DNA from: an uncultured Ignavibacteria bacterium | Lineage (GTDB): Bacteria > Bacteroidota > Ignavibacteria > SZUA-365 | NCBI GenBank assembly: GCA_913061095.1 | Contig: CAJXVM010000008.1 | Coordinates: 124,001 to 188,000 of the forward strand | DNA length: 64,000 bases | Direction: 5' to 3' | In this document: positions 55,325 through 64,000 of the stretch, one piece after another | How the letters are laid out: each line of letters starts with the position of its first letter | Position numbering within the stretch: the stretch's first letter is position 1 | The notes under the pieces: model-generated | Databases searched by the model: none | What the model was told of the DNA's origin: nothing | The model's input: the letters and a program-made list of their open reading frames with translations, nothing else | Position numbers and translations under genes: made by a program

Positions 55325-58300
55325 CTACCGCATCAGCACCATCTTCCGTGTCAGCACAACATCCGGTGTCTCTAACCGATAGGAGTACACACCCGAAGGG
55401 AGTCCGCTCGCATCGAACGCAACCGCATGCGTGCCTGCGGCCAGCGGCCAACGGCTGGCGATTCTCTTTACCTCCCGTCCCAGCGCGTCCGTGACGATCA
55501 GCGCTACACGCATCGGTTTCGTCAGCGTATAGGAGATGGTCGTCCCGGGATTGAAGGGATTCGGGTAGTTCTGATGCAGGATGCAGGATGCCGGCAGCCC
55601 TCCGGGGGTATCGACAGCTGTCGTGGTGTCTGCCGGAGACGGAACCGCAATCGTTCTGCGGTCGAGAAAACGACGGTTCCCGGTCTCGAGGACGACCGAG
55701 ACTTCCACATGTCTGGTCGACGGAGGGACCTCGATTTCCATGCTGCCCTCTCCGGAACTTCCGGGCTGCAGTGCACCGAGAGAAAAAACGTTTCCTGTCA
55801 TCGCGGTGACGTCTCTGCTGAGAATGGTGACGATTGCCCTGGCACCGGGAGCGTCCGATCCGCCGAGGTTCGCGGTCGTCAGACGGAGACTGCAGCGGTG
55901 CTCACCGCTCGAAGGTTCGCGAACGATCTCCCCTTCCGTCACACCGAGCGCAGGCAGGGTGATCAGGCTCTCCGTACCGGTTCTCATAGCGGTGATCGCA
56001 TCCACGGCGGCATCGAGCGGGGCAAGAATGGAATCGATTTCCACGAGGAGATTGTCCTGCCGCTCTGTCGTCGGTGTGAGCACATAATCCATCAGGGAAA
56101 CCGACAGCACGGCGCGGCGCATCGCAAGCAGCTGCATGCGCGCAAGAATACCGTAATAGTCGTCACGCAGATCCTGCCGGAGGTAGATATCCATGGGCTC
56201 AATCCCGAGCAGGGGCCGCTGCAGCAGTGCCGCCTCCGCAATCATGGCATGACCGCTCCGCCGCAGTGCCTCGAAATGTTCGATAATGAAATCGGTGTCA
56301 CCCTCCTGCACCTTGCCGCGCAGTTCGATAAGCGAATCCCTGTCGGAAGCGACTGAAGGAGCGACGACGGAACGCCGCAGCGCAGCGGGGGAAGCTTTCC
56401 TCCCGGTCCGACCGGACGCAGCGGAAAAGCCGGGAAGTACATCCCGGAATCCGCTCGTTTCCGGATTGAAAATCGCCAGCCCGGATTGCCGGAGCAGCGC
56501 AGGGAGCGAACCGAGTTCCGGGATCTCTTCGGATGCAGTGAGATACAGCATGCGCGCCACAGGCGTGGCTGCTGCCGCGATCGCATCGTGAAGACCGGTC
56601 ACCATGCGTGGACGTAGATCCCGCAGTTTCTGGAAAAATGCCTCAAGGGGAGTACCCGCCGCCTGGTCGAGGGCGTACGCGGCATCCATCGCCGTACAGA
56701 TGCTGCCGTACGGTGCGAAGGCCATCCTCAGCGCATCGACCTCGGTGCGCACTGTCTGAACCGCGGTGCTGCGCTTCGCGATGGCCGCCTGACGGCTTCC
56801 GGAACAATCCAGCTGTTCCGTTTTGTCCGCGAAGAACGGGATGAGCGGTTGTGTGACCGGGAGATAGTGCGTTCCAAGGATGTACTCTTTCCAGTAATCC
56901 ACCATCGGCACCAGTATCGTTTTGCTCATATTCGGGATTTCACCCCGTTCCTCCAGCATGGTGACATAGAGGTCCGCCAGCTTCGCATCGGGTGTTATTC
57001 CCATGAGCTGCATCAAAAGGATGGCGCCGTCGAACACGGGATTGATCATGTCGACGATAGCCGCATCCAGGCACGGCTCCTCGCTGCCGAGAAACGCACA
57101 TTCGTCCTCCCATGTGAGACCGAGCGCACAGACGTTCCTCATCGTCATTCCGATCGGCGCGGCTGCCTGTTTCGCCGTTCCCGCCGCTCCCTCGATGGGA
57201 GGGGTATAACTCAGATCCTGGAATCCGCTGGACATCACGCGCTCCAGAAATGCAAAGCGTTCAAACGCCTCCACGGCTTTGCTCTGATCTTCAGGATAAT
57301 CGGTCTGCCACCGGGCGATCAGGCTGCGCGCTGCTGTTTCGTCGTACCCGCGCTGATAATCCGCGAATATCTGACGCAGAATCACCATTGACGCGCTTCC
57401 ATCGGGGATGAGTTCTTCGAGTCCGGAGAACATCGCTTCTTTCATCGCCATGGCGTCACGCAGTTCCTGTCCCATCGGGTTTCGGTCGGTTGTCGCACTG
57501 ACGACGGCAGACCAGTCGGAACACCCGTCGCTGTTGCGCGCACGCACGCGGTACCAGTACTTCGCATTCTGCCGGAGTCCGTGATCCGTATAACTGCTGT
57601 CGCCGGCGCCGAGATTCGATGTGACCGTCTGGAAGCCGGCGTCATGTGCAATCTCGGAACGTTCGATTTCGAAACCGTCTTCGTTCGATGGCGACGGCAT
57701 CTCCCAGGTGATCCGTATCTCGCTGGTGCTCAGGGGCCTCGCGTACACGTTCGTCGGCACGGGCGGCAGATCAAGATTCTCCTCGAGCGTCGTCGCATAG
57801 ACGACATCCGACCACGGCGACGTTCCGCTGCTGTTGTATGCGCGGACGCGGTAATAGTAGGTTGTCAGCGGCTCCAGGCCCTTCCGCTCATACGCGCGTT
57901 TCCCCGGCGCCACCGCGGGTTCGATTGTCACGAAGTCCGCGTCGTCGCGTGTCGGGGATTCCTGGATCTCGCAGCCATCCTCATACGAGTTGGGCGGCAG
58001 AACCCACGTGATTTTGATGGTATGCCCATCCAGTGCCTCGGCGTCGGCGAAGAACGGCCGGCCGGGAGCGGGGCGCGCATAGGTCCGCGCGGTGTCAACA
58101 TTCGAATACCCCGAGTTCGCGACTTCGTTCACAGCGCGAACACGGTACCAGTAGACGGTATTCGGTTCGAGATGCTCATCTTTCAGTTCGGTGATTCCTG
58201 CAGTTGTCGTGTGAACAGAGGAGGTCCAGGTCGCGCCGTCCTCACTGCGATCGATTTCGAAAAGATTTTCGTTCGTCGAGGCACGCTCCCAGGACAACTG

Positions 58301-61626: not shown

Positions 61627-61695
61627 TCAGCGCATCAGCACCATCTTCCGAGTCAGCACAACATCCGCCGCCTCCATCCAAGGGCTGCGGGAGAT
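61627..61695 (-). pseudogene. Remnant of a T9SS sorting-domain 3' end
   Basis: Reading (-) into a stop at 61629-61627, the last twelve codons give D-V-V-L-T-R-K-M-V-L-M-R, identical in protein and nearly identical in DNA to the last twelve residues of SBBP paralogue B. About ten codons further upstream the frame hits a stop, and nothing else of the gene remains. It is best read as the tail of a lost or duplicated gene. The rest of the 61397-61935 gap holds only the motif, the stem-loop and the upstream region of the S74 gene. Confidence 0.7.
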
Positions 61696-61935
61696 TCATC
61701 ATCGTTCTCACAGAAGGAATGACACCCGACTTTACACATTCCCTCCGTTAAAGTCAACCTTGTCTCATTTTCTGAACGTCAGGACGTATTCTGTTGACAT
61801 TACCTCCAGAGCCCACTACCTTCCCTGTAACGCAATCCCGAATATTCCGCTCCACATCACTCTCAGTCCCTCAGGGACCGCTGTACCATCGCGCATAATT
61901 CCCCTTCCCATAGACAATCCATCGGAGGAATGACG

Positions 61936-63324
61936 ATGACGGCACGATTATACCTGATGATAGTGGGCCTCTGCACCTGTGCAATGGTGAGTCAGGCCCA
62001 GGACATCCAATCCAGGCTCACAGGCAACACGACAGGGGAGGGATTCTCTGTTGTTGATAAGACAAACAATACGCTGTTTACTGTCCGCGGGAACGGTAAC
62101 ACAGGAATTGGCACATCAAACCCAGCATTCAAACTGACACTCAATTCGGATGCCGGTATCCTCGCCACGGGAACCTATAATTCGGGGACAACACTGCCCT
62201 CGATTGTCGATGGTCCCATCATGATCTGGTACGCGAGAAAGGGGGCATTTCGCGCAGGTTACGCACGGTTCGGGAATTGGGACGATTCAAACATCGGGGA
62301 TTTTTCTTTTGCATCGGGAGAAGGTACGAAGGCCAGTGGTATGTACGCTGCCGCCTTTGGGGACAGATCAATTGCGAGCGGAACATGGTCTTTCGCTGCC
62401 GGGAACGGAGCAGAAGCCTCGGGTGGGGGGGCATCTGCATTCGGATACGCGTACGCGACCGGGAATTATTCCATGGCGGCGGGTCAGCTTGCGCGAGCAG
62501 ATGGGGACAAATCGTTTGCATTCGGATTTGATGTGAAGGCTTCCGGCGAGGAATCCTGTGCAATCGGCAGAAAACTCTTTGCCAGCGGGGACAACTCTGT
62601 CGCGATCGGGAGTTTCGTTTCGACCAACGGGAGGACCGGTTCCATGTACCTCGGTGATGCCAGTGCAACATCAATAGGCACTCGACAGGCGTATGGCAAC
62701 AATCATTTCTACGCGGTCTTCCACACCGGATTCAGTCTGTTCACCGACAAGTCAGCCGGAAACACGTACTGCGTGGTCCTTCAGAATCATAGCACCTCAT
62801 GGAGTTCCTGCTCGGATTCGTCCAAGAAAGAGAATCATCAACCGGCAGATGGAGAATCCGTGCTTCGGAAGTTCAGCCACCTGCGTCTCGGCAGCTGGAA
62901 CTTCATCGGCCATGACCCGTTCACCGAGAGGCATTACGGCCCCATGGCGCAGGAGTGGTACGCCGCGTTTGGTCATGACGGGATCGGGACGATCGGCACC
63001 GACACCCTGCTCGCCTCGGCCGATGTCGACGGTGTGCTCTGTATCGCCGTGAAGGCGCTGGAGAAAAGGACTTCGGCAAATGTGAGCTCGGTAGCTGAGT
63101 TGCAAAAGGAACTCGCAACACTCCGGGAACAGCTGAGGAGCAAGGATCTGGAGATCGCCGGCCTCCGCACACGGCTTTCAGCTCAGGAGAACGAAATGCA
63201 GGAAATACGGCGGGGAAATGAACACCGATATACCGAACTGGAGCGTCTTGTTCGCAATCTTCAGCAGGACCAGCAGAACGCAGCCCGGCACGTGCAACTT
63301 CTCAATCAGGAGGCAGAGCAATGA
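61936..63324 (+). CDS. YadA-head-like / S74 chaperone-domain surface protein
   Basis: 462 residues. ATG 61936 has better spacing to GGAGG than the ATG at 61930, and a signal peptide follows (MTARLYLMIVGLCTCAMVSQA). Residues about 20-75 are N-terminal strands. About 115-230 are YadA/Hia-head-like repeats (A-S-G-x-x-[SA]-x-A-F-G, A-x-A-x-G). About 285-385 form a Peptidase_S74-type intramolecular chaperone (S-D-S-S-K-K-E-N; L-R-L-G-S-W-N-F-I-G; G-P-M-A-Q-E-W-Y-A-A-F-G). A C-terminal coiled-coil runs from about 385 to the end. Such proteins are trimeric, and S74 domains usually cleave themselves off after folding. There is no T9SS domain and no phage neighbour. The stop overlaps the next start (ATGA). 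Confidence 0.82.
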   Translation: MTARLYLMIVGLCTCAMVSQAQDIQSRLTGNTTGEGFSVVDKTNNTLFTVRGNGNTGIGTSNPAFKLTLNSDAGILATGTYNSGTTLPSIVDGPIMIWYARKGAFRAGYARFGNWDDSNIGDFSFASGEGTKASGMYAAAFGDRSIASGTWSFAAGNGAEASGGGASAFGYAYATGNYSMAAGQLARADGDKSFAFGFDVKASGEESCAIGRKLFASGDNSVAIGSFVSTNGRTGSMYLGDASATSIGTRQAYGNNHFYAVFHTGFSLFTDKSAGNTYCVVLQNHSTSWSSCSDSSKKENHQPADGESVLRKFSHLRLGSWNFIGHDPFTERHYGPMAQEWYAAFGHDGIGTIGTDTLLASADVDGVLCIAVKALEKRTSANVSSVAELQKELATLREQLRSKDLEIAGLRTRLSAQENEMQEIRRGNEHRYTELERLVRNLQQDQQNAARHVQLLNQEAEQ

Positions 63325-64000
63325 TACGATGCAGATTCAGCATTATCCTTTGTGTGTTCCTGGTGGGTTTCCTGCTGCCGGGGATGCTCGCCGCCCAGCG
63401 CGGCACTATCACGATTCCCGTCGGAGCGGAAATCTCCGTGCCGATCGGTGCGAAAATCTGCGCCGACACCATTTTCGCGAACGGTGCGGGACATGGCAGG
63501 CTCAACCTCGCTGATCCGTCCTGCATCTGTTCCGGAGTGGTGATCACTCCGGTCGAGTTGCTCACCCTCTCCGCCACGTTGCATAACGGCATCGTGCAGC
63601 TGACCTGGACAACAGCGACGGAATCACGCAACTACGGTTTTGAGCTGCAGCGGAGTACTGCGTCGCAGGATTGGACGCCAATCGGTTTTGTTGAGGGACA
63701 TGGCAGCAGCGCAGCACCGCATTCCTACCGCTTCACCGACCGTCTCGAGGATCTTCCTCGCTCCACTTCCGTGCTGCGCTATCGACTACGCCAGATCGAT
63801 TTCGACGGGCAATTCGAGTTTTCACCGGAGGTGGAAGTACATCTGGACCAGCCCCTTCCCCGTTTAGTTCTGAAGGGATACCCCTCCCCCTGCGATGAAA
63901 CCTACACCCTGTTCCTGACAATGTCTGAAGCCGCATCACCTGATATTCGACTGCACGACGTGACCGGGCGCGTTGTGATGCCCATTGCACAGAATGCGCT
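63321..64000 (+). CDS. Secreted T9SS-substrate protein, partial (runs off window)
   Basis: ATG 63321 overlaps the S74 gene stop (ATGA). About 226 codons are present and the frame is open at the right edge. Signal peptide (I-I-L-C-V-F-L-V-G-F-L-L-P-G-M-L-A-A), a short unique part with C-I-C, then from about residue 85 a fibronectin-like segment (V-Q-L-T-W-T-T-A-T-E-S-R-N-Y-G-F-E-L-Q-R) that is typical just ahead of T9SS domains. The start of the sorting domain follows (G-Y-P-S-P-C...H-D-V-T-G-R-V-V). Only the last strands should be missing. It is coupled to the S74 protein, so the two probably act together at the surface. Confidence 0.8.
   Translation, partial: MIRCRFSIILCVFLVGFLLPGMLAAQRGTITIPVGAEISVPIGAKICADTIFANGAGHGRLNLADPSCICSGVVITPVELLTLSATLHNGIVQLTWTTATESRNYGFELQRSTASQDWTPIGFVEGHGSSAAPHSYRFTDRLEDLPRSTSVLRYRLRQIDFDGQFEFSPEVEVHLDQPLPRLVLKGYPSPCDETYTLFLTMSEAASPDIRLHDVTGRVVMPIAQNA

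Follow-up and report, generated by a model that had tools for sequence, protein, structure and literature searches.

The tail fibres of phages are the best-known setting of Peptidase_S74 domains and fibre tips. By description, the closest system to the locus reported here is the mosaic adhesive trimeric (MAT) fibre family of Bdellovibrio; in the text available of PMC10769870, one genome holds 13 S74 and 8 non-S74 members, S74 self-cleavage is demonstrated, and the substitution S782A abolished localisation of the protein. The present locus joins two known kinds of protein, S74 fibres as in the Bdellovibrio MAT proteins and T9SS substrates, in a real, conserved two-gene module. Such a pair was not found described in literature on S74 or endosialidase chaperones with T9SS or Bacteroidetes, or on T9SS with tail fibers, and the available text of sources on T9SS cargo without a sorting domain held nothing to the point. 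The window, a stretch of 64,000 nucleotides from an uncultured Ignavibacteria bacterium, carries the two genes, termed the fibre and the partner, at its right-hand end with the following features.

61936 to 63324, plus strand: fibre gene, 462 amino acids (464 amino acids from the alternative ATG at 61930).
61936 to 61998, plus strand: Sec signal peptide of the fibre, a hydrophobic N terminus probably cleaved between ...SQA and QDIQ.
61999 to 62142, plus strand: fibre N-terminal segment, QDIQSRLTGNTTGEGFSVV...LFTVRGNG, common to paired fibres class-wide.
62305 to 62623, plus strand: YadA-type head repeats, from Pfam PF05658, PDB matches and repeat positions.
62812 to 62973, plus strand: Peptidase_S74 core from the SDSSKK motif, Pfam PF13884, residues 295-348.
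63028 to 63318, plus strand: coiled coil at the C terminus with a short tail, ...HVQLLNQEAEQ, from a long model helix and the sequence.
63321 to 64000, plus strand: partner gene, cut by the window edge after 226 of its 266 codons.
63321 to 63395, plus strand: partner signal peptide, from alignment and from a helix at residues 3-22 of the modelled L059 homologue.
63396 to 63560, plus strand: partner N-module, QRGTITIPVGAEISVPIGAKICAD...CSG, conserved class-wide, A2 profile E 4.2e-20.
63552 to 63845, plus strand: FN3/Ig-like beta sandwich of the partner, from an AlphaFold2 model of the L059 homologue, alignment and fold search.
63879 to 64000, plus strand: first part of the T9SS sorting domain (type A), running past the window (TIGR04183, residues 187-264 in the complete partner, L038:4322-5122).

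The second ATG of the open reading frame 61930-63324, at 61936, is the likelier start of the fibre because the sequence GGAGGA finishes 6 nt before it. Residues 24-71 match the fibre N-terminal profile with E 2.6e-22 for the model built on its own group and E 2.6e-10 for the class-wide model. The YadA_head repeats (PF05658) score 55.3 bits against a Pfam cut-off of 25 and the Peptidase_S74 domain (PF13884) scores 32.3 bits against a cut-off of 22, placing the protein in the S74 family, and the SDxxxK motif is intact as SDSSKK with Ser293 and Lys298 in the 462-residue numbering. Profile matches in the PDB include BpaC and other YadA-type heads, and also MYRF (7dc3) and the distal subunit of a phage long tail fibre (6f45). 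The single-chain model is of low confidence with a mean pLDDT of 51.5, too poor for a fold search, and within it the coiled-coil helix spans residues 391-464 at pLDDT 56-84. Trimerisation and S74 self-cleavage are predicted by analogy with known S74 proteins. No obvious membrane segment follows the signal peptide, beyond which the 19-residue mean hydropathy stays at or below 1.54; a Pfam scan finds no YadA anchor barrel, the C terminus being a coiled coil instead, and Pfam and NCBIfam scans find no T9SS sorting domain in the fibre.

The fibre stop codon overlaps the partner start in the ATGA at 63321-63324. The complete partner is 266 amino acids long (L038:4322-5122), and another genome of this genus carries a near-identical contig (G003:C421, locus L059), the source of the homologue used for modeling. 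The partner N-module comprises ~50 residues, among them QRG, CAD and one further Cys; the alignment shows invariant positions in it, and in the model of the homologue it is a short, beta-rich unit of four short strands at a pLDDT of roughly 55-75. A fold search with the partner model returned only generic Ig/FN3-type matches, Porphyromonas gingivalis PorU among them. Elsewhere in the class there are short partners from which the FN3/Ig-like sandwich is missing, leaving little beyond the N-module and the sorting domain. The sorting domain scores 27 bits with TIGR04183, above the cut-off of 23, which classes the partner as a type A substrate, and 24.5 bits with Pfam PF18962, below the cut-off of 27; both paralogous partners of the same genome clear the two cut-offs. 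The genome encodes T9SS machinery, with SprA (1068.9 bits), PorU (974.4 bits) and PorV (310.6 bits) all matched. A first-pass annotation of the sequence had described YadA-type heads and an S74 domain in one protein with an ordinary signal peptide, no membrane anchor and an ATGA link to a T9SS-sorted protein, and each of these points is borne out by the profile scores, the hydropathy, the 63321-63324 overlap and the TIGR04183 match.

The distribution of the partner was surveyed with the A2 profile, which was built on 19 partner N-modules and covers the N-terminal ~47 residues; the full-length partner profile is unspecific, FN3 and the sorting domain matching in 197 of 197 class genomes, and the N-module profile was therefore used. 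A2 matches 77 places in 33 of the 197 genomes, spanning 18 of 106 genera and eight families, and in a 395-genome draw from the phylum all 13 matching genomes belong to the same class. A contig search with the partner alignment gave three loci only, none of them on a new contig. The surroundings were taken for all 77 loci, 76 of which have a readable partner frame, the one excluded being a broken fragment in the source genome. A fibre-type protein lies upstream of the partner at 72 of these 76 loci, 71 of these frames matching one of the two fibre profiles (N-terminal or S74) and the frame at L184 having a Pfam S74 match; three of the upstream stops are distant from the module match, at 945 (L170), 370 (L176) and 697 nt (L227). 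L216 shows a piece of coiled coil at a contig edge, and there is no fibre near L207, whose partner has a broken sorting domain, or L210, which lies at a contig end. The order is reversed in L229:1-6135, with a short partner first and a GKLG-type fibre directly downstream. The fibre profiles were partly built from proteins that they then detected, and a half-and-half test recovered 26 of 27 and all 28 of 28 held-out cases. Of the 76 upstream frames, 66 give a Pfam S74 match. With seven loci set aside, the in-frame 4-nt overlap recurs in 24 of the remaining 69.

As a control, 20 other sorting-domain genes of the source genome were considered, and in the 19 that could be judged no upstream frame was of the fibre or S74 kind. 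The pairing is more than chance, given these controls, the 72 of 76 upstream fibres and two further ATGA-linked pairs in the same genome. By tally, S74 is present in 28 of the 33 partner genomes compared with 42 of the 164 other class genomes; the five partner genomes with no S74 match are G085, G119, G124, G176 and G187, four of which hold S74-less fibres. The first-pass annotation had made its case depend on conservation of the pair and of the S74 catalytic residues, and both hold: beyond the recurrence of the pair, Ser and Lys of the SDxxxK motif are retained in 64 of 71 upstream proteins (63 by script and L209 by eye), with five having no S74 domain. In two, L199 (L054:2387-3865) and L227, Cys replaces the catalytic Ser, the motifs reading CDRNKK and CDRNLK. 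The fibre ends vary, with L214, L215 and L220 showing a hydrophobic stretch and then basic residues (KRKKR, RKKR) in place of a coiled-coil end, and fibres outside the order of the source genome having weakly conserved, KEVKLTEK-like last residues with Lys at the end in 36 of 55. A KEVKLTEK-like conserved tail signal was considered and is weak, its information being barely above that of the preceding coil and the regular expression fitting 13 of 67.

The same annotation had put its stress on S74. This emphasis proved too narrow: the partner follows the N-terminal segment and accompanies S74-less fibres too. Five upstream proteins (L162, L183, L185, L203 and L218) have the fibre N terminus and no S74 with the partner kept, and one of the 76 scanned upstream frames, probably L162, bears a C1q match. 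Across the 65 loci with a readable fibre N terminus, the short FN3-less partner accompanies 8 of 10 fibres of the GKLG type (INGKLG) and 1 of 37 of the NTLG type (Fisher p 1.2e-6), and within five genomes of one genus the figures are 6 of 8 and 1 of 13 (p 0.003); L229 is outside the count, yet fits. The persistence of the partner with S74-less fibres and the matching of FN3-less partners to one N-terminal type indicate that the partner is tied to the fibre N terminus more than to S74, as far as sequences can tell.

Mirror-tree comparisons used within-genome distances in genomes with at least three pairs. In the version based on match positions, which kept 60 of 65 pairs, partner N-module distances correlate with those of the fibre N terminus at r 0.39 (11 of 2000 permutations as high) and with those of S74 at r 0.40 (14 of 2000), and the sorting domain correlates with the fibre N terminus at r 0.04. 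An earlier version based on regular expressions, with 53 of 65 pairs, gave r 0.42 for the fibre N terminus against the N-module (50 of 2000) and r 0.35 against the sorting domain (181 of 2000), so that the low sorting-domain correlation, at 0.04 in one version and 0.35 in the other, is fragile. The equal correlation of S74 distances with the N-module counts against docking through the N-module, and genes of one operon can be inherited together although their products never touch. It is conceivable, though we consider it rather unlikely, that the two proteins are co-expressed to serve the same condition and make no contact, the partner being secreted independently and the fibre staying periplasmic or leaving by another route. 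The L207 partner fragment with no fibre gene near it would agree with this, as would two fibres of the source genome with no intact partner nearby, while L210, at its contig end, likewise shows none; conservation over eight families, the matching of types and persistence of the partner after replacement of S74 exceed what shared regulation would need.

The source genome has seven S74 matches. Three belong to ATGA-linked pairs, the window pair, L039:5345-6745 and L041:6539-8149, the last preceded in tandem by a further fibre (L041:5028-6530). Behind the fibre L039:8928-10376 lies a broken partner module with an internal stop (L039:10448-10552, equivalent to G000:C3:90447-90551), the S74 fibre of L040 has no partner, and the S74 protein of L042 has a different N terminus. 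Two S74 fibres of this genome (C11 and C3b) are without an intact partner nearby and one (C1) is of another N-terminal type. Upstream of the window fibre, positions 61631-61679 repeat, at 88% identity, the 3' end (55329-55377) of the sorting-domain gene next door on the minus strand; this lone copy is probably the leftover end of another sorting-domain gene. Descent from a prophage or tailocin tail-fibre cassette, of which the pair would be a remnant, appears most improbable: the PDB profile matches of the fibre do include phage fibres, set against signal peptides, a partner with a sorting domain and several paralogous loci per genome. Two scans of viral contigs with short peptide patterns, which distant relatives could escape, found no relatives, and the signal peptides together with the class-wide pairing largely refute a prophage origin.

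S74 proteins outside the pairs were sampled as 20 S74 regions with higher-scoring matches in genomes without an A2 match. In eight of the 20, a separate sorting-domain gene lies close to the S74 gene and on its strand, each scoring above the NCBIfam cut-off, and seven of these genes adjoin the S74 gene, with a further fibre-like gene lying between in L281. A sorting-like domain is fused behind S74 in L264, L269, L273, L275, L276 and L283 by profile and in L277 by eye, only one of the seven (L264) being above the NCBIfam cut-off, and at L267, L268, L272, L279 and L282 a sorting domain is absent or could not be judged. The prediction that sorting-fused S74 proteins would have lost the catalytic Ser fails in the five of the seven read at that site, L264, L269, L273 and L277 keeping the motif and L275 reading SSRAWK; as self-cleavage would be retained in the fused proteins where the motif is read, covalent towing is not the whole story. 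A small T9SS family of the SGGxD...GQ type adjoins or lies near S74 proteins with a different N terminus (L044:732-1253, L048:457-978, L278:4713-5195 and L281:1108-1656) and may represent a second kind of partner. The S74 proteins of the class thus show a tendency to be linked with T9SS, by more than one arrangement. These ties bear on whether the partner could be a factor that assembles or caps the fibre in the periplasm or at the surface and carries nothing, the fibre being released or held otherwise. Its short, beta-rich N-module could cap the fibre base, and the short partners are little more than this module and a sorting domain; the one other constant element is, however, the T9SS sorting domain, which points to surface transport, and S74 proteins of other types likewise adjoin or carry sorting domains, leaving a capping role improbable.

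Display of the fibre by its T9SS-sorted partner appears to be the best fit. The fibre has no visible route to the surface and is repeatedly encoded beside a small T9SS-sorted protein, and this class-wide recurrent adjacency suggests that the latter carries or anchors the former. We lean slightly towards a trimeric surface fibre, probably adhesive, that is displayed and perhaps also exported in trans by the partner. The two proteins would be translated together through the ATGA overlap present in the sequence and, with their signal peptides, would both reach the periplasm through Sec. There the fibre trimer would fold under its S74 domain as known S74 proteins do, and S74 would probably cut itself off at Ser293 to leave a trimer of the N-terminal segment and YadA-type head. 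The T9SS machinery seen in the genome would move the partner across the outer membrane by means of its type A sorting domain, and the partner N-module would grip the fibre N-terminal segment and so form the surface anchor of the fibre. The partner may also take the fibre through the T9SS channel, a carrier role considered because sorting domain, barrel and lipid anchor are all lacking in the fibre itself. Adhesion is the likely role, with varied heads and tips swapped on one anchoring scheme. A tentative extension, which we hold to be possible and somewhat doubtful, is that T9SS exports a folded trimer that itself lacks a sorting domain, bound to an adaptor recognising the fibre N terminus, and that this docking scheme with interchangeable tips is class-wide. 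If display by the partner is correct, a pair with a separate sorting domain and a displayed fibre shows how phage-like trimeric fibres reach the surface, the T9SS secretome extends to proteins missed by sorting-domain searches, and the matched docking pair can be used to ask whether the T9SS channel passes assembled complexes.

Compared with the S74 (ICA) proteins of phage tail fibres and endosialidases and with MYRF, the fibre shares the S74 domain with its SDxxxK motif and differs in being an exported cellular protein with a signal peptide and a sorting-domain partner. It shares head repeats with the YadA-type trimeric autotransporter adhesins (type Vc), whereas their C-terminal anchor barrel is absent and S74 and the coiled coil take its place. 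The partner resembles T9SS type A substrates in its TIGR04183 sorting domain, unlike the fibre, which has none. Every T9SS substrate known to us has a sorting domain of its own, we know of none that acts in trans as a carrier or anchor for a trimer, and T9SS is not, as far as we are aware, a Bdellovibrio system. T9SS type B substrates with a PorP/SprF-like neighbour are similar in that the genes are adjacent and one product anchors the other at the surface, whereas in those pairs an outer-membrane barrel serves as the anchor and a sorting domain is present in the client itself, as described in the available portions of PMC12618676 and PMC9143113. The likeness to the Bdellovibrio MAT fibres, compared by description with the available part of PMC10769870, extends to the signal peptide, the conserved beta-rich N-terminal domain, the trimeric fibre, the S74 or non-S74 ends and the SDxxxK motif, whereas the module reported here has a shorter conserved N terminus (about 50 residues compared with ~130), YadA-like heads and a T9SS-sorted partner gene.
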